A DNA stretch of 43,611 bases, taken from IMG/VR virus record IMGVR_UViG_3300008050_000096, positions 1 through 43,611 of that record, one strand, 5' to 3'. Under the pieces are notes generated by a model. The model was not told the origin of the DNA. It searched no databases and saw nothing but the letters and a program-made list of their open reading frames with translations. This document shows positions 4,031-43,535 of this stretch, piece by piece (positions within the stretch are counted from its first letter, which is position 1; each line of letters starts with the position of its first letter). The DNA is from a virus. The translations under genes were made by a program, and so were the position numbers.

Positions 4031-5272
4031 ATGGGACAAAGTAAAAATGGAGTTGGGATAGTAGATAATACAAACCAAGGTTTTGGTGATATTCCTCAGA
4101 TGGATGCTTTTGGCAGACTGCGAGTTTCAGAAGTAACAACGCTTGTAGATTTGAAGATGCTTGGCGGTCGGCGTGACTTCTGGATTGATACAGTTGAAAA
4201 TGGTACTGGAACTGCAACACACGTTGATTCAAAAAGTGCTGTAGAATTAGAAACAGCGGCGAGCGGTGATTATGTAATCAGACAGGAATATCAACGAAAT
4301 AGGTATCAGTCTGGTAAATCGCAACAGATTTTCATGACGTTCTCCAAATTAGCACCAGAAGCTAACATTGTTAAGCGTGTTGGATATTTCACCAGTAATA
4401 CCGTTGCTCCGTTTGATTCGGATAAAGATGGATTGTGGCTAGAAAGTTCCAATGGCGAAATTTCAATTAATATTCAACATGTAGGAGGAGTCACTGAATC
4501 AACAGCGCAATCGTCATTTAATGTTGATAAATTAGACGGTACAGGACCGAGCGGTATAACTATGGATTGGAGTAAATCCCAAATCATGTTCGTTGATTTT
4601 GAATGGTTAGGTGTTGGTCGTGTTAGATGGGGGTTTGTAATTGATGGCATAATCGTACCGTGCCACGTTTCGAATCACACAAATAACGGCTTAGATGAAG
4701 TCTACATGCGTTCACCAAACCAACCTCTTCGTTGGGAAATCCGTCAAACCGGTTCAGGATCAGGTTTATTTGATCAAATTTGTGCTACAGTAGGTTCAGA
4801 AGGATCACTTAACGAATTAGGTATTACCAGAAGTGCGATTGGACAAGAAATTGTCGGTAATGGTGAGAATTGTACCGCTGATGTTAAAACGGCATTGATC
4901 GGTATGAGGTTAAAGGATGGTTATATTGATGTTCCACCTGACTTCTCTGGTTTTGGATCATGGACAAAAGATAAAGCAACATACTTGTGGGAAATTTATA
5001 TGAACCCAACAGTTGCCGGAACATTTACTTATAATGACGAACCGAACTCAACAGTGCAAATTGCAAAAGGGGTATCTAGTAATACTGTTACTGGTGGAAT
5101 CCGACTAATTGCCGGATATTCAGGAGATAAATCCACTGTTAATAACATTGTTCAGGTCGCTCGTAAGCTTGGAGTATCAATAGATGGTACAAAAGATACG
5201 TTCGTATTATGTGTAACTCCAGAAGCTACTAAACCGTTCTTTGGTTCACTTGACTGGGTTGAAGTAGGATAA
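4031..5272 (+). CDS. putative virion or adhesion protein
   Basis: This 413-residue protein starts GQSKNGVGIVDNTNQGFGDI and continues PQMDAFGRLRVSEVTTL. It is a predicted soluble, beta-rich protein without signal or membrane segments. The opening phrase MDAFGRLRVSE (residues 20-30) echoes phage structural proteins that have a short N-terminal attachment segment. It lies 12 bp after the previous gene with RBS AGGAG. The next gene begins with a similar short Lys-Asn-Gly segment (SKIKNGTTIV), suggesting a shared docking peptide. Function beyond virion structure is not assignable. Confidence 0.5.
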   Translation: MGQSKNGVGIVDNTNQGFGDIPQMDAFGRLRVSEVTTLVDLKMLGGRRDFWIDTVENGTGTATHVDSKSAVELETAASGDYVIRQEYQRNRYQSGKSQQIFMTFSKLAPEANIVKRVGYFTSNTVAPFDSDKDGLWLESSNGEISINIQHVGGVTESTAQSSFNVDKLDGTGPSGITMDWSKSQIMFVDFEWLGVGRVRWGFVIDGIIVPCHVSNHTNNGLDEVYMRSPNQPLRWEIRQTGSGSGLFDQICATVGSEGSLNELGITRSAIGQEIVGNGENCTADVKTALIGMRLKDGYIDVPPDFSGFGSWTKDKATYLWEIYMNPTVAGTFTYNDEPNSTVQIAKGVSSNTVTGGIRLIAGYSGDKSTVNNIVQVARKLGVSIDGTKDTFVLCVTPEATKPFFGSLDWVEVG

Positions 5273-6080: not shown

Positions 6081-7934
6081 ATGTCAGAGATAAGAAGATA
6101 TAAAGATTGCGGAGCAGTATTCGCAGATAATTGCAATGACCCAATCAAGAACGTAATATATAGCGGTACTAGTGATGTGGAGTTTGTTGACTCTCCTTAT
6201 GGTACTGCACCATATTTTGATGGTGATGCTGTCGCAAAGTTTACGGACAAGACTAGAATTAATGAAGTACTTGATGGTGAGTTTAGTTTATCATTCAGGA
6301 TTAAACCTACACTAGACTTCTCGTATAGAACTATATTTAGAGCAATGAATAATGACAGCGCTTCTTATATGAGGTTCACGACTGTGAATAAATTGCAAAC
6401 GTTTATGACGTATACGGATAACTCTACTAGAAATATTGCAACTAATACAGTATTTAACTCAGACGAATGGTATACTATAACTGCTACATATGACGGCGCT
6501 AATTTTACTGTATATGTTAATGGAGTATTCGATGTAACAACCGCAGTAGCTTTACCATTGCGTAAAGGTACAGATGGTTCGTATTTTGGCTATTTAAGTG
6601 GTATTTACGCATATGCAGATATTGTAACTGATGATCGTGCATGGTCTGAACAGGAAGCATTAGATTTCCATAACGGAAGTACTTTCGATTATGATAAGCA
6701 CGTTGAAGCTAATTGGAATATGGATTCTGTTGATGAAATTGCTGATGTGGGTTGGAGAAAAGATCCTGAATTATCTAAAACCCTTACTGCACACCAATTT
6801 TTAGATTTAACAGCTTTTGATATTGATAAAGTCATGACAGAAGGTATTTGGGATATTAGTATAGATTTCTCATACGATTCATCCAATTTTAATAATTATG
6901 GACGTTTAGTCTGGTTTATAGGTGATGTTGGTGGTCCTGATTTCTTTAGATTTCAAAGAACTATTGGAACTAATAATTGGGTACTTTGGGTTAGAAATTC
7001 TAGTTCCAGTGATATAGCCGTTACAAGTACTGATTTAGTACCGAATACTCGTATGGTGCTTCGCTTAGTGGGTGACGGTTCTCGTAGTAAGATTTATGTT
7101 GACGGTGTAAAAGTTGCAGATGTGGCAATTACAACCGCAAACTTCTATTCTCCAGTATGGAGTGAAAAGCGTATCTGGTCTCACACTACAAGTGAACTAA
7201 CGAAAATGTATGGTTTTAAACTTGCAACTGATGATTTGAAAGTGTCATTGCATACAATCGCTGAAGGTGAAGAGCGATATGGTGTAACTGCAACAGAGAA
7301 TGGAATGATTGATTCAGTCACTCGCGCATTCTTACCGAATTCGGGAACTGGAGCAGATTTCGGCTATAAGAAAGATAATAGAGGTTCAATAGTAGGCTCA
7401 CCAGTTCTAACTAAAGATGTATGCGGTGACGCTCTTATATTCGCTGATAATGAATACATGGACGCATCTAGTGTTGTAGTTGCAGGTGATCAAACTATAA
7501 TATCATGCAGTACTGTAAATAGCACACCGGGTATAGCATATAATATGTACGGTAAATATGTATCAGGGCTACCGAGCGAAGATGTTATATGGGCATTTAA
7601 TAGTACTAATGGGTTCAATGTGAGGATTGGAGCGAGTGGCGTAGCTTATGTGGCCATTAATCTTAATACTGAACTAGGGTTTAATATAGTGTCCCTAGTT
7701 ATAAATAGAACAGAGAATGAAATGTATGCAGTTAATAATGGAGAAACTAGCGCAGTGTCGAATATCTCAACAATCGGTACTAGTAATGGAACTATCAATC
7801 GCATAGGTGATGTTGGTGGCGGTACATATACGCCGCTTGACGGTAATTACGGAAAATTTATAGTATTCAACTCCGCGCTTACAACGACACAAATTAGAGA
7901 TGTTGAGAATAGAATTAAACGAGGACAAATTTAA
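6081..7934 (+). CDS. LamG/concanavalin A-like adhesion protein
   Basis: This 617-residue protein shows repeated LamG-like jelly-roll features. The first domain (about residues 25-205) contains PYFDGDAVAKF, FSLSFRIKP, EWYTITATYDGANFTVYVNG and the closing DDRAWSEQEALDFHNG. A second similar domain spans about 215-400 (MVLRLVGDGSRSKIYVDGVK). A third spans about 400-615, ending in FIVFNSALTTTQIRDVENR. Such domains bind glycans in phage tail proteins. The end overlaps the ATG of the next, related gene by one base, so the two probably form one receptor-binding apparatus. Confidence 0.7.
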   Translation: MSEIRRYKDCGAVFADNCNDPIKNVIYSGTSDVEFVDSPYGTAPYFDGDAVAKFTDKTRINEVLDGEFSLSFRIKPTLDFSYRTIFRAMNNDSASYMRFTTVNKLQTFMTYTDNSTRNIATNTVFNSDEWYTITATYDGANFTVYVNGVFDVTTAVALPLRKGTDGSYFGYLSGIYAYADIVTDDRAWSEQEALDFHNGSTFDYDKHVEANWNMDSVDEIADVGWRKDPELSKTLTAHQFLDLTAFDIDKVMTEGIWDISIDFSYDSSNFNNYGRLVWFIGDVGGPDFFRFQRTIGTNNWVLWVRNSSSSDIAVTSTDLVPNTRMVLRLVGDGSRSKIYVDGVKVADVAITTANFYSPVWSEKRIWSHTTSELTKMYGFKLATDDLKVSLHTIAEGEERYGVTATENGMIDSVTRAFLPNSGTGADFGYKKDNRGSIVGSPVLTKDVCGDALIFADNEYMDASSVVVAGDQTIISCSTVNSTPGIAYNMYGKYVSGLPSEDVIWAFNSTNGFNVRIGASGVAYVAINLNTELGFNIVSLVINRTENEMYAVNNGETSAVSNISTIGTSNGTINRIGDVGGGTYTPLDGNYGKFIVFNSALTTTQIRDVENRIKRGQI

Positions 7935-10209: not shown

Positions 10210-10632
10210 ATGAGTAGTTTTACAAAACCATTTAAAGTTTTGGTACACAATAACTCTCTTAAGGATAAGCCTTTTGAGGTTATTGTTCCATTTGAGTATT
10301 ATTCAAAAAAGTTTAACGGATTTATGGTTAAAGTGCCAAAAGGGTATAGGACAGACTTCGCAAGTGTTCCTAGAATCTTTTGGGCTATAATTCCACCTAT
10401 CGGAAAATATAGTAAAGCCTGTGTCATTCATGATGTCTTAATAGATAATAAAGATAGTCATGAGTTCACCATGGATGAAATAAATCAGATTTTATTTGAA
10501 GCTATGGGGGTTTTATGTGTCAGTAAGTTTAATAAGTACTTAATATATGGCAGTGTGCTATTTTATTGGAAGTTTGGAAGATATATTTCCAACTTCGTGA
10601 GAAAGATTCTAAGGAGAGAAAATGGAAAATAA
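10210..10632 (+). CDS. DUF1353 family phage protein
   Basis: The 140-residue protein carries the DUF1353 signature VPKGYRTDFASVPRIFWAII followed by PPIGKYSKACVIHDVL. An in-frame start six codons upstream is less likely, because RBS AGGAA lies 5 bp before this ATG. A C-terminal hydrophobic stretch (YLIYGSVLFYW) precedes a basic tail. DUF1353 genes usually lie near the phage tail or lysis region, and their function is unknown. The stop overlaps the start of the next gene by 11 bases. Confidence 0.85.
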   Translation: MSSFTKPFKVLVHNNSLKDKPFEVIVPFEYYSKKFNGFMVKVPKGYRTDFASVPRIFWAIIPPIGKYSKACVIHDVLIDNKDSHEFTMDEINQILFEAMGVLCVSKFNKYLIYGSVLFYWKFGRYISNFVRKILRRENGK

Positions 10633-11308
10633 TGAAGTAAGAGATTTGCAAAATCATATGAATACTATATCAGTATCACCACATGTTGCAAACGATCAAC
10701 AAGAGGCTTATACAGGCATGTTGGGAATGGGGCCAATCGGATCGTTGATGGCAACTATTCTATTATTTTGGATACTTGCATATGTATTTGGAGTTATTCA
10801 TAAATATCGCGAAGAGAAGAAGTGGCTCATCCCAAATGCCAGATATGTATTGGAATTAGGTCGTGCGTGGGGGATTTTATTCAAATCTCTAGCAGGACTT
10901 GCAACTCCAAGAGCGCAGGTTGAACGTAGTGATGCATATTACTATAATCCAACTCAGGATGAATTTGACGAAGCACTGCTGGTGACGCATCAGATGATGA
11001 CAGACGGCGGTTGGACTATTGCAGGATATTTAAAGAGATCTAAAGATTGTGAAGACTATGCTATGAAAATGGCAGTTGAAATAAGAAATTACATCGCCAC
11101 TACTTGGACAGAGAAAGTTGGTGAAAAAGGCGTTTCCGTTGGCAATATCGCGTATAGGCGGGATGTAGACGGTGTGGGTCACGTAATTGTGGTGGCAATG
11201 TTAGATAACGGAGTAAAATACTACGAGCCATATCCGGGTGAGAAGTATTTGAAGGAGAAGCCAATGTCTCAAAAGGAATTGGATTCAATCAACATGAGCA
11301 TAATGTAA
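10622..11308 (+). CDS. membrane-anchored transglutaminase/cysteine-peptidase-like protein
   Basis: The 228-residue protein has one membrane segment near residues 37-59 (IGSLMATILLFWILAYVFGV) and a C-terminal domain resembling bacterial transglutaminase-like cysteine peptidases. Cys143 sits in SKDCEDYA, His187 in GHVIVVAML, and an acidic or Asn residue sits in the following DNG or YEPYP. The arrangement C...H...(D/N/E) fits a papain or transglutaminase fold. RBS is AAGGAGA. Possible roles are peptide crosslinking or cleavage at the inner membrane during infection; this is inference. Confidence 0.6.
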   Translation: MENNEVRDLQNHMNTISVSPHVANDQQEAYTGMLGMGPIGSLMATILLFWILAYVFGVIHKYREEKKWLIPNARYVLELGRAWGILFKSLAGLATPRAQVERSDAYYYNPTQDEFDEALLVTHQMMTDGGWTIAGYLKRSKDCEDYAMKMAVEIRNYIATTWTEKVGEKGVSVGNIAYRRDVDGVGHVIVVAMLDNGVKYYEPYPGEKYLKEKPMSQKELDSINMSIM

Positions 11309-18368: not shown

Positions 18369-19589
18369 TTAACTCCTTATGCATTCTTCAGGTTTCTTAT
18401 CATAGCGAACACGGATGAACTGTGGAAATTCACAACATCCACTATCGTCCTGCCGACTCTGATATTCGATTTCATTCACAAACGGGAATGTCAGTTCACC
18501 GCCATCAATTTCTTCGGTCAGTTCTTTCAAGCGTTCATGTGACAGTTTACCTGGCCCACATTTCCCGAAACTAACTAATTCCCCATCTACATATTGACTG
18601 ATGAAGAATTTAGCGTACAACCCTGCTTGTTTACCCGCTTTACCTTTTTCAGCACTTGTAACAATGAAATCATCTTCATAGACATACTTCTGTTTCCAAG
18701 CACCGCATTTATCAGCTTTACCGTTCAAGGAGAAGCGGATATTAGACTTTTCACCTTCAACCCGAAGAACAAGACCTTCAATGTCACCATCTTTGTCGCC
18801 TTGGTTTTCTTCGTAGAACTTCTTCCAATCTTCAAGAATTTCAGGAACGTCCAAACCCATTTCAATCATCCACGGGTAGCGTTCAGTCTTGTAACAGGTG
18901 TTACCGATGAACTTATAGTCCATAAACATCATGTCAAACGGAACAACTTCAAAGGTGTTCTCAACCGATAGGGCGTTGTAGCGTTTAACCGCCTTTTCTT
19001 CAGTTTTCTGACGAGTAACTTCACCCGCTTTACGAGGACTGTCTTTACCATCAGCCTGTACGCAACAGAACTCATTAAGCACCAGTGAACCTTTTGCCAT
19101 AGTGTCCAATTGCTCTTTGATCACAGGAATGTTCTTTAGGTGTTGAAGCGGAACCATGCCACGGGAATATACATATTCCTTTTCAGTCTTAATAAGAATG
19201 ATACAGTGACCGTTGCGTTTCAACTGACCAAACAGTGTTGGATCTTTCAGTGCTGAAGCGGGAGCGTCCTTTGCAGGTTTACTTGGGCAAAAACTTTCTG
19301 GAATGTTATCAAGGTCGATTTCTTCAGTCTTAGTTTCAACAACTGCTTCCAAATCTTCAACATAACCGTCCTTTTTCTTTTTAACGATCTTAGCATCCAT
19401 TTCAACGATAGCCTGTTCAGCAGGAGTAGATTCATTGGCTTTGCCAATATTCTTACCTTCACACTCTTTGCGAGTAGACTGTTCCTTAGACCCAATCGTA
19501 CCCCACTTGCTACAGAGAAATTCGCCCTCTGTCCAAAGTTCAATGTATTTGGTTTTTCCAGTTCGTGCTTTTTGATATAATTTAGTCAT
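18369..19589 (-). CDS. ATP-dependent DNA ligase with N-terminal WGR domain
   Basis: The 406-residue protein begins with a WGR-like domain (YIELWTEGEFLCSKWGTIGS, about residues 15-34), followed by an acidic linker. The nucleotidyltransferase core then runs from about 115. Motif I is GQLKRNGHCI, with candidate nucleotide-attachment Lys124 (KxNG instead of KxDG). Later motifs include FEVVPFDMMF, DIEGLVLRVEG (about 259-269) and WKQKY (288-292), and an OB-like C-terminal domain follows (LVSFGKCGPGKLS). It should seal nicks in phage DNA. The WGR fusion is unusual, because that domain is best known from PARPs and some bacterial regulators. Confidence 0.85.
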   Translation of the reverse strand: MTKLYQKARTGKTKYIELWTEGEFLCSKWGTIGSKEQSTRKECEGKNIGKANESTPAEQAIVEMDAKIVKKKKDGYVEDLEAVVETKTEEIDLDNIPESFCPSKPAKDAPASALKDPTLFGQLKRNGHCIILIKTEKEYVYSRGMVPLQHLKNIPVIKEQLDTMAKGSLVLNEFCCVQADGKDSPRKAGEVTRQKTEEKAVKRYNALSVENTFEVVPFDMMFMDYKFIGNTCYKTERYPWMIEMGLDVPEILEDWKKFYEENQGDKDGDIEGLVLRVEGEKSNIRFSLNGKADKCGAWKQKYVYEDDFIVTSAEKGKAGKQAGLYAKFFISQYVDGELVSFGKCGPGKLSHERLKELTEEIDGGELTFPFVNEIEYQSRQDDSGCCEFPQFIRVRYDKKPEECIRS

Positions 19590-40832: not shown

Positions 40833-40860
40833 TTGGCACATTGATGTGAGTGTGTATAAT
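40833..40860 (+). promoter_or_regulatory. sigma70-type promoter of tRNA cluster
   Basis: TTGGCA, 16 nt, TATAAT ends 18 bp before the first tRNA half. Its spacer end (GAGTGTG) matches that of the 12392 promoter. Confidence 0.78.
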
Positions 40861-40878
40861 AGATCACATAACAAAGAA

Positions 40879-41122
40879 CATTGGGTCGCTTAATGTGTAA
40901 AGCACCTTCACCAAGAGAAAGAAAGCCGATTGCGGATGTCTCCAAGTGTCTCGTACAAGACCACGGGGATTGAGGTAAGTGCGAGTATGGAAACTAGGAT
41001 GCGTCAATGGATGTAGGGGATCGATACCCGAAATCTGGAGATAGTCAAAGGAAATGGAAACGTGAAGGAGAAATGGTAATGATACAAATTATTGTATCTG
41101 GGTTCGAATCCCCCCCCAATGA
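40879..41122 (+). tRNA. interrupted tRNA 1 (long variable arm), insert in anticodon loop
   Basis: The 5' half CATTGGG-TC-GCTT...AAGC-A-CCTTC (40879-40909) and the 3' half GAAGG (41064-41068) to CCCAATG-A (41115-41122) form a perfect 7-bp acceptor stem and a 5-bp anticodon stem. T-loop TTCGAAT is at 41103-41109. The variable region is long, with a 7-bp hairpin (41081-41098), so it is class II-like (Leu, Ser or Tyr type). Two T-stem pairs mismatch. About 147-154 nt separate the halves. The anticodon cannot be read, because the splice points are unknown. Confidence 0.7.
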
Positions 41123-41145
41123 TACCAATTTTGAAGTAATAGATA

Positions 41146-41315
41146 CAAGCGGTAGTTTAATAGAGAAAAATACCTAGAAGTTGTGGGAATGGAAGCGTAC
41201 AAGTGCCAATCGATCGTAGGCGAAGACGTTAGTATTTCTAAGAGTGCGGGACTAATTGACCCAAGCAAACAACATTGACATCTAGGAGTTGGCGGTTCGA
41301 ATCCGTGTCGCTTGA
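41146..41315 (+). tRNA. interrupted tRNA 2, insert in anticodon loop
   Basis: The acceptor CAAGCGG (41146-41152) pairs with TCGCTTG (41308-41314), with one wobble. The D-arm is TAGTTT...AAATA, and anticodon stem CCTAG (41173-41177) pairs with CTAGG (41282-41286). T-loop TTCGAAT is at 41296-41302; the T-stem has one mismatch at its base. The 104 nt between the stem halves include TTGT/ACAA pairing near the ends. A TTGACAT stretch sits just before the 3' stem; a full loop there would read GAC, but this is only one option. Confidence 0.75.
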
Positions 41316-41337
41316 TTCCATTTTTGAAGTACATAAA

Positions 41338-41581
41338 CAGCGGGTAGCTCAGGTGGTGGAGCAACCATCGTGAATAGATAAAAAAGCAGGTTACGAGTTA
41401 TTGTAGTGTACAATGCAGTGCTAGTAATTCTGACAAGTATTGAAGGCTTAAGGTGACGGGATGCCCGAAGATAGGTGGTTGCAACCATCTTGAAAGGTAT
41501 ACATCGAGTAGTAACGGTTCCCCGATTTGGCAATACACGGTAACATATGGTAGGTCGGATGTTCGAATCATCCCCCGCTGA
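41338..41581 (+). tRNA. interrupted tRNA 3, insert in anticodon loop
   Basis: This is the clearest of the three. The acceptor CAGCGGG/CCCGCTG is perfect, the D-arm is TAGCTCAGGTGGTGGAGCA, and the anticodon stem is ACCAT (41364-41368) with ATGGT (41547-41551). The variable loop is AGGTC, and the T-arm is GGATG-TTCGAAT-CATCC with a perfect stem. The 178 nt between stem halves begin CGTG and contain CACG (41536-41539) just before a 7-nt GTAACAT. Removal at those points would leave a 7-nt loop with anticodon AAC, but this is not proven. Confidence 0.82.
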
Positions 41582-41587
41582 CATCAT

Positions 41588-42262
41588 TTAAAACTTAAGT
41601 TTACGACCCTTTTTCCAACCATTGGGGATTGGGTCTGTTTTCTTAATTCTTTTAGATTCTTTTAGTTCTAGGTTATATATCCACATTGTTCCATAATGCG
41701 AATTACCAGATCCCTTTTGACGTTTAGAATTCGCTAATCCGATTTTGTTCTTTGACTCTTCAGTATGTTTCATACCCGTGAAGTGTGATGTTGGAGTATA
41801 TCTTCCTTCTGAAATTGCTAATTGCAACCCCTCCGAAACTCTTTGACTAAAATATTCTTTAAATTCTTTAGTTTCCGACAATTCTTTAATCTTTGCAAAC
41901 CCTCTTTCGTGTCCAAGTTTTTGAGCTTCCTTATAGTTTTTCTGATTATGGATTAGAACACCCAAGTTATTAGCATTTACGTGATCCCATCCACCAGTAC
42001 CACCAAGTTTGATATTATATGTATCTGCTCTTTTGATGAATTCGGAATCAACAATTTTAGCTTCCATATCACTAGCATCTTGCTCATTATCATATACGAA
42101 TAAAATATCTTTAGTGAAATGATCAACTCCATATTTCTCTATCGCCCGTTCAATGAGTAATCCTGAACCCATATAGTTGTCGTTTATATCTTCGGTTTTA
42201 TGTTTACCAATGTAAATTTTGTTGTTGACAGTATTCGTAATTTTGTATATAGTGTATTTCAT
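41588..42262 (-). CDS. GIY-YIG homing endonuclease (free-standing)
   Basis: The 224-residue protein begins MKYTIYKITNTVNNKIYIGK with the GIY-YIG core (TIY and YIG), followed by LLIERAIEKYGVDHF. Its C-terminal DNA-binding part includes HFTGMKHTEESKNKIG, a NUMOD3-type element. It resembles the Seg-type phage endonucleases. It lies tail-to-tail with the interrupted tRNA cluster; the stop is 7 bp from tRNA 3. Its promoter-RBS module is CTAAATAGTTATAGGAG. T4 also has a Seg gene beside its tRNA cluster. Confidence 0.88.
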   Translation of the reverse strand: MKYTIYKITNTVNNKIYIGKHKTEDINDNYMGSGLLIERAIEKYGVDHFTKDILFVYDNEQDASDMEAKIVDSEFIKRADTYNIKLGGTGGWDHVNANNLGVLIHNQKNYKEAQKLGHERGFAKIKELSETKEFKEYFSQRVSEGLQLAISEGRYTPTSHFTGMKHTEESKNKIGLANSKRQKGSGNSHYGTMWIYNLELKESKRIKKTDPIPNGWKKGRKLKF

Positions 42263-42563: not shown

Positions 42564-42797
42564 GTGGTAGAAATCAACGAACGCCAGTACATGATGGATC
42601 TTGGCGATGAGCATATGATCGTCTGGGAGCGACACCCTTCTGTGGTGATGTTGAAATACGTCAGTATAAATAATCAGAGAACTATTATAAGGGAATATAC
42701 TCGCAGTTCATTTGCTATCGGAATACATCCCGTTCGTAGATTTTTCCGCTTGACAGATGAAGAAGTTAAGTGTATGGTATTACCAAGAATTATTTAG
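42564..42797 (+). CDS. tandem small protein, shared-tail array member 1
   Basis: The GTG start follows the previous stop by 1 bp (MVEINERQYMMDLGDEHMIV, 77 residues). The tail FFRLTDEEVKCMVLPRII is nearly identical in members 2-4, while the middle differs. The pattern of a variable body and a constant C-terminus links it to the about 100-residue early family. The end codes for a segment that may serve as promoter and RBS for member 2. Confidence 0.68.
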   Translation: MVEINERQYMMDLGDEHMIVWERHPSVVMLKYVSINNQRTIIREYTRSSFAIGIHPVRRFFRLTDEEVKCMVLPRII

Positions 42798-42805
42798 GAG
42801 GTAAT

Positions 42806-43030
42806 ATGGTTGAAATAACAGAAGATGAATGGATGTACCTTGGTGGACACCGCATCATGTGGCAGAGAATGGGGCAATATGATGCTCTCTATTACTGTAG
42901 AGAAGGTATGGGAATGACTCGTCTGAAATTGACAGTTCCCGTCAAACCTATACTAAGAAGTAAAACTCATCGTTATTTCTCCTTGACAGAACAGGAAGTA
43001 ATTGATATGGTATTACCAAGAATTATTTAG
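42806..43030 (+). CDS. tandem small protein, shared-tail array member 2
   Basis: ATG 42806, with AGGAGG 6 bp upstream (MVEITEDEWMYLGGHRIMWQ, 74 residues). The first 8 residues resemble member 1 (MVEI), suggesting a fairly recent duplication. The tail YFSLTEQEVIDMVLPRII is shared. Function unknown. Confidence 0.7.
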   Translation: MVEITEDEWMYLGGHRIMWQRMGQYDALYYCREGMGMTRLKLTVPVKPILRSKTHRYFSLTEQEVIDMVLPRII

Positions 43031-43038
43031 GAGGTAGT

Positions 43039-43263
43039 ATGAAATTGTATATTAATGCCCGTCTTCCAAAGTCTGGAAACATATTGAAGCGTGGGTTCTT
43101 TTGTGGAACTTGCGAGTTGACATTATACACTATAAAAAACTACACATTGACTAATCCTGTCATCATTAAAGAAACAAATTCTGTAAGTTCCTTCAGAGAT
43201 TCTACGTTTTGGATATTGACAGATGAAGAAGTTCAGCGTATGGTATTACCAAGAATAATTTAA
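43039..43263 (+). CDS. tandem small protein, shared-tail array member 3
   Basis: ATG 43039 after AGGAGG (MKLYINARLPKSGNILKRGF, 74 residues). The body is unrelated by eye to members 1 and 2; the tail WILTDEEVQRMVLPRII is nearly the same. Function unknown. Confidence 0.7.
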   Translation: MKLYINARLPKSGNILKRGFFCGTCELTLYTIKNYTLTNPVIIKETNSVSSFRDSTFWILTDEEVQRMVLPRII

Positions 43264-43271
43264 GGAGGAGC

Positions 43272-43535
43272 ATGAAAGAACTTGATATAGATCGTATATA
43301 TAACCAACAAACCCCTGACAATGTTACGGGAATAGTGGGAATGAGAAACATTCTATCGTGGTCTAGGGGAAGTAATATATTCTCTTGGTTGACATTTCAT
43401 AGCGAGTACGGTGAAGCGTGTGGCGTTGATCTGAAGGTCACAAAGCTTCCATTCATCCATAAGGTAAATAGAAATCGCTATTTTATATTGACAGATGAAG
43501 AAGTTGAGCGTATGGTATTACCAAGAATTATTTAA
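43272..43535 (+). CDS. tandem small protein, shared-tail array member 4
   Basis: ATG 43272 after AAGGAGG (MKELDIDRIYNQQTPDNVTG, 87 residues). The tail YFILTDEEVERMVLPRII matches the others. Function unknown. Confidence 0.7.
   Translation: MKELDIDRIYNQQTPDNVTGIVGMRNILSWSRGSNIFSWLTFHSEYGEACGVDLKVTKLPFIHKVNRNRYFILTDEEVERMVLPRII

Follow-up and report, generated by a model that had tools for sequence, protein, structure and literature searches.

Three tandem tRNA-type genes with unclassified anticodon-loop inserts in a viral DNA fragment

What becomes of a tRNA gene whose anticodon loop is interrupted by more than 100 nt, and why should three such genes stand in a row? Positions 40879-41581 of the window, the whole 43,611-nt stretch of viral DNA that was analysed, raise this question. 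Three tRNA 5' halves alternate there with three 3' halves on the plus strand, giving cloverleaf-type RNAs at 40879-41122, 41146-41315 and 41338-41581. All three are genuine genes of tRNA type, and the inserts in their anticodon loops are unclassified. The alternating halves, matching stems, intact TTCGAAT and spans of 154, 104 and 178 nt reported in the preliminary description were exact to the base. Its reading of split tRNA-type genes was borne out by ARAGORN, which found the joined halves when introns were allowed (copy 1 at a lowered threshold).

Copy 1 spans 40879-41121, or 41122 with A73. Its 5' half (40879-40909) contains the acceptor strand CATTGGG, the D-arm GCTT/AAGC and the anticodon-stem strand CCTTC. 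The 154-nt insert 1 (40910-41063), which has no Rfam match, lies between the two halves of the anticodon stem, and the 3' half (41064-41122) contains GAAGG, a long variable-arm hairpin (41081-41098), the T-arm, CCCAATG and A73. Copy 2 (41146-41314) consists of a 5' half at 41146-41177 with CAAGCGG, a D-arm and CCTAG, the 104-nt insert 2 at 41178-41281, and a 3' half at 41282-41315 with CTAGG, a T-arm, TCGCTTG and A73. Copy 3 (41338-41580) consists of a 5' half at 41338-41368 with CAGCGGG, the D-arm GCTCAGGTGGTGGAGC and ACCAT, the 178-nt insert 3 at 41369-41546, and a 3' half at 41547-41581 with ATGGT, the variable loop AGGTC, the T-arm GGATG/CATCC, CCCGCTG and A73. Part of the 5' half recurs within insert 3 (41481-41494); at 41474-41495 the insert repeats AGGTGGT..GCAACCATC.TGAA of its own 5' half, which creates a competing hairpin.

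The T-loop TTCGAAT is common to the three copies, and each 3' half carries RACRU before the stem as well as A73. Skipping the insert lets the acceptor, D, anticodon and T helices form, more weakly in copy 1, where the T-stem has only three pairs. The G18-G19 pair is present in the D-loop of copy 3 only, being absent from copies 1 and 2, and U33 is missing on the 5' side of the insert in all three.

Neither default ARAGORN nor Rfam at gathering thresholds reported anything. With introns allowed, ARAGORN called copies 2 and 3 with scores of 132 and 205 and introns at 32/33; copy 1 was called only after the threshold was lowered. As a chance control, 8.7 Mb of dinucleotide-shuffled window and 5000 shuffles of the local 861-nt stretch yielded two and zero split tRNAs, respectively. 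A purpose-written split-tRNA scanner gave copy 3 a score of 22.5, copy 2 a score of 19.5 and copy 1 a score of 18.0; shuffled sequence reached at most 18.3, with six hits in 2.6 Mb on both strands. Chance can be excluded as the source of the array, in which copy 1 is the weakest member: not significant alone, it gains significance because it neighbours the other two (24 nt from copy 2), not by its own score. A coding origin of the stretch was ruled out by codon use and a protein-family search, the antisense ORFs over it having non-coding codon use.

The acceptor and anticodon stems are 100% paired in all copies though on both sides the letters vary from copy to copy. Within the cassette itself, two-sided differences occur at acceptor pairs 3-5 and at four of the five anticodon pairs. 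When the copies were aligned with two Lak tRNAs, with 500 shuffles as control, both stems were paired in every sequence and 12 of 12 pairs had changed on both sides; none of the 500 shuffles reached the observed values. The stems are under constraint, as judged from this alignment, and their pairing despite two-sided changes argues against both chance and decay.

The inserts themselves matched no known class. In a permissive scan, none of 4227 Rfam models matched, whether group I, group II or any other family; there were chance-level hits only, plus a tmRNA T-arm fragment. The Intron_gpI model gave no match over the whole record at E up to 10, and the same model did give hits in control genomes. 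The absence of a group I core, noted in the preliminary description, was thus upheld, and the group I and group II models found no intron in the inserts. A tmRNA was rejected, with only 13 T-arm positions matching (E 0.13). Beyond short words, inserts 1-3 showed no similarity to one another, and the one word that they share, GTACAA, was considered to be within chance expectation. The inserts had been described as structured, but they folded no better than shuffles (z-scores of -1.1, -1.5 and +0.6 for inserts 1, 2 and 3, respectively). Of the earlier interpretation, then, the split tRNAs and the missing group I core stand, whereas the structured character and the premise that such inserts are normally group I do not. 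On inspection for an archaeal-type bulge-helix-bulge (3-4-3), a helix beside the anticodon stem with a one-sided bulge of 6-8 nt is possible, weak in copy 1 and likely due to chance; the one-sided 3' bulges adjoining the anticodon stem were judged likely chance in each copy. Y RNA (YrlA) tRNA mimics were set aside, with no Ro60 gene recognised in the window and no Rfam match.

The surroundings fit a tRNA locus. A sigma-70-type promoter-like site, TTGGCA-16-TATAAT (40833-40860, plus strand), ends 18 nt upstream of copy 1 and has 11 of 12 matches to the consensus, a consensus match only. Elsewhere in the window, at 42750-43516, four TTGACA-17-TATGGT promoter-like sites, spaced 233-272 nt, precede small genes. 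Spacer 1 (41123-41145) is near-identical to spacer 2 (41316-41337); this repeat (D1), TGATNCCANTTTTGAAGTA, starts in the last bases of the tRNA, and its presence after copies 1 and 2 points to a tandem duplication. Convergent with the cassette is a SegB-type GIY-YIG homing endonuclease gene (41588-42262, minus strand; PHROG 314 homing endonuclease, E 1e-40), whose product shares up to 46% identity with phage SegB/Seg-like endonucleases. T4, Acinetobacter and Vibrio phages all show the ordinary SegB-tRNA arrangement. Phage tRNAs are strongly associated in position with SegB genes, which can amplify them, and amplification of tRNA genes by SegB against tRNA-cutting defences is a recent finding (PMC13096335). 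The tandem copies beside SegB fit such amplification.

The two options of the preliminary description, an undescribed tRNA intervening sequence and a retained extra domain, are both still live. We tentatively prefer, at somewhat under an even chance, that the inserts are protein-dependent introns at about 32/33, whose excision would leave copies 2 and 3 with U33 and a Val-type anticodon. On this reading, three tRNA-type genes that arose by tandem duplication, on what is probably a fragment of a large T4-related phage, would each carry an unclassified, non-self-splicing intervening sequence at about 31/32-32/33 of the anticodon loop. The cassette would be transcribed from its own promoter, and its ends trimmed by RNase P and 3' tRNA processing with the anticodon stem still paired across the insert. 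A nuclease would then cut the insert out at the stem base, and an RNA ligase would rejoin the halves. In the same way, T4-type phages use Pnkp and RNA ligase 1 to repair tRNA that has been cleaved at the anticodon.

In single-excision modelling, copy 3 was cut at 32/33, giving the loop C-U-AAC-A-U with a score of 16.8, and copy 2 at 31/32, giving U-U-GAC-A-U with a score of 15.3; both exceeded all of 180 shuffles (maximum 15.05). The predicted anticodons would be Val-type (NAC), and RACRU and A73 in all 3' halves are consistent with a Val-type tRNA family. Excision is also favoured by the stems, which differ between copies on both strands and are yet paired across the inserts, by the comparable interrupted tRNAs of Lak-A1 and the KVP40-like Vibrio phages, and by the RNA ligase gene annotated near one of the Vibrio tRNAs. 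Against it, neither such a nuclease nor an RNA ligase could be recognised among the genes of the 43.6-kb fragment, where a DNA ligase-like protein is among the family-named genes, and bacteria are not known to have a tRNA-splicing endonuclease. The inserts have neither sequence nor boundary structure in common, an odd feature if one machinery acts on them all. The lack of G18-G19 in copies 1 and 2 also counts against excision, as does copy 1, in which no anticodon-loop cut yields U33 and the excision score is no better than shuffles. Large phages repeatedly carry interrupted tRNA genes whose inserts are not group I, and for this reason removal is put slightly ahead of retention.

The main rival, only a little less likely, is that the inserts are retained, and that each product is a stable non-coding RNA of tRNA-like form whose anticodon arm is much extended and which would undergo tRNA-like end-processing, take no part in decoding and work like T4 RNA C. 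The minimum-energy fold of unspliced copy 1 holds the whole cloverleaf, copies 2 and 3 come within 2.5 and 5 kcal/mol of doing so, respectively, and the absence of U33 5' of every insert agrees with retention. T4 RNA C (139 nt) is, moreover, a stable tRNA-like RNA in the same kind of place, beside SegB and tRNA-Arg. However, the RNA C covariance model finds isolated T-arms only in the three window RNAs. A common functional domain would predict unusually stable or related inserts, which these are not, and copy 3 resembles a near-regular tRNA.

Decay of tRNA pseudogenes that gained insertions is unlikely. The loss of G18-G19 from copies 1 and 2, the broken T-stem of copy 1 and its lack of U33 in any anticodon-loop reading would suit it, as would the partial repeat of the 5' half within insert 3. 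Decaying genes, however, would not keep acceptor and anticodon stems fully paired in three of three copies despite letter differences on both strands. That the inserts are degenerate or minimal group I introns is highly improbable: the anticodon loop is a classic bacterial site for them and insert 1 ends in GATAGTC, which weakly resembles P7, but Intron_gpI found nothing at E up to 10, a group I core cannot fit in an insert of 97-104 nt, and copies 1 and 2 lack the U before the 5' site.

Searches for relatives of the cassette found none, neither by nucleotide search of phage records nor in viral contigs scanned with five window proteins, an alignment of one of them, the SegB protein and the duplicated spacer. 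Outside Lak-A1, a split-tRNA scan covering about 2.5 Mb of phage DNA turned up no further clean example; what ARAGORN reported in other tRNA clusters was weak or a chimera of neighbouring tRNAs. In another large phage, a 123-nt tRNA-like gene at 19169-19291, within a tRNA cluster, is perfect in its acceptor stem and T-arm, with roughly 50 additional nt separating the D arm from the anticodon arm.

The general view is that tRNA introns of bacteria and phages are group I elements that splice themselves. The premise of the preliminary description that phage tRNA inserts are normally of this class does not take account of Lak megaphages, whose tRNA introns are unclassified (PMC6784885). With that precedent, and judged against open-licence papers, the window inserts are a variant of a poorly understood known kind. 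Short inserts that are not group I would imply protein-based tRNA splicing in bacteria or phages, possibly by T4-type tRNA repair enzymes; alternatively, tRNA bodies would be used as carriers for other RNA. It is possible, on balance not probable, that large phages of several lineages (the window phage, Lak and KVP40-like phages) share an undescribed tRNA splicing or tRNA-scaffolded RNA display that acts on differing anticodon-arm inserts, represented here by three tandem tRNAs with a different insert each at the same site. Since standard tRNA calling misses such genes, interrupted tRNA genes may be common.

Four known systems can be compared with the cassette. The anticodon loop is a classic site of group I introns in bacterial tRNAs (PMC3984707), the same position as in the window. 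Those introns have a catalytic core, whereas none was detected in the window, where the copy 2 insert is about 100 nt.

T4 RNA C (species 1 RNA), examined at 2406-2551 of the T4 record, has a tRNA-like fold with an extended central arm; Northern blotting has confirmed the RNA, for which no function is known (PMC9697503; PMC3014915). In the structure derived from five phages, 20 of 47 pairs show compensatory changes, and the homologues fold with an acceptor-like stem, a variable-arm hairpin, a canonical T-arm and, where a tRNA would have its D and anticodon arms, one long arm. In the diverged RNA C copy of Kosakonia phage 305, the central arm differs in sequence. RNA C resembles the window RNAs in its tRNA-like form, T-arm, variable-arm hairpin, extended central arm and location in a tRNA cluster beside SegB, but differs from them in lacking a D-arm, in its shorter acceptor and in having a conserved sequence of its own. 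Membership of the window RNAs in its family was rejected, as its covariance model detects the T-arm only; RNA C is therefore an analogue and does not form one family with them.

Lak megaphages have been reported to carry tRNAs with 'enigmatic' introns (Devoto et al. 2019, PMC6784885), and in Lak-A1 our split-tRNA scanner found four such tRNAs, interrupted by 86, 100, 121 and 150 nt. In both Lak and the window, anticodon-loop inserts of no known class occupy phage tRNA genes. All four Lak-A1 tRNAs have U33 and a readable anticodon 5' of the insert, which the window copies lack, and three of the four inserts hold a nested tRNA-like domain with its own T-arm, whereas inspection found no TTCRA T-arm inside the window inserts. 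Three Lak-A1 inserts, on the reverse strand at 10478-10662, 2834-2996 and 6455-6607, share one layout: about 8 nt, next a hairpin of 4-5 bp whose hexaloop is A-rich, and last the nested domain.

In this analysis, KVP40-like Vibrio phages proved to possess a family of tRNAs with anticodon-arm inserts of 38-50 nt near positions 28-32, found in dozens of phage records and annotated as tRNA-OTHER, as hypothetical or not at all. Vibrio phage TCU-VP04-AIR2 has interrupted tRNAs at 4544-4662 and 7208-7319, with homologues in further records. The first interrupted Vibrio tRNA has an RNA ligase gene annotated about 0.7 kb away. The insert forms a hairpin with a UGACAA hexaloop, followed by the conserved motif UUCAGCAACCAA; the hairpin is paired in eight of eight sequences, its covariation score exceeds every shuffle, and in one case removal of the insert leaves a regular tRNA-Asn(GUU). 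Scored against the model of these short inserts with their conserved covarying hairpin and motif (R2), the window inserts gave no match (best 8.7 bits, a hairpin fragment only, E 0.14 in 741 nt), and membership in the family was ruled out by this covariance search. The Vibrio and window genes are nevertheless alike in belonging to T4-related phages, in lying in a SegB-linked tRNA cluster, in carrying an insert in the anticodon arm and in being missed by standard tRNA calling.
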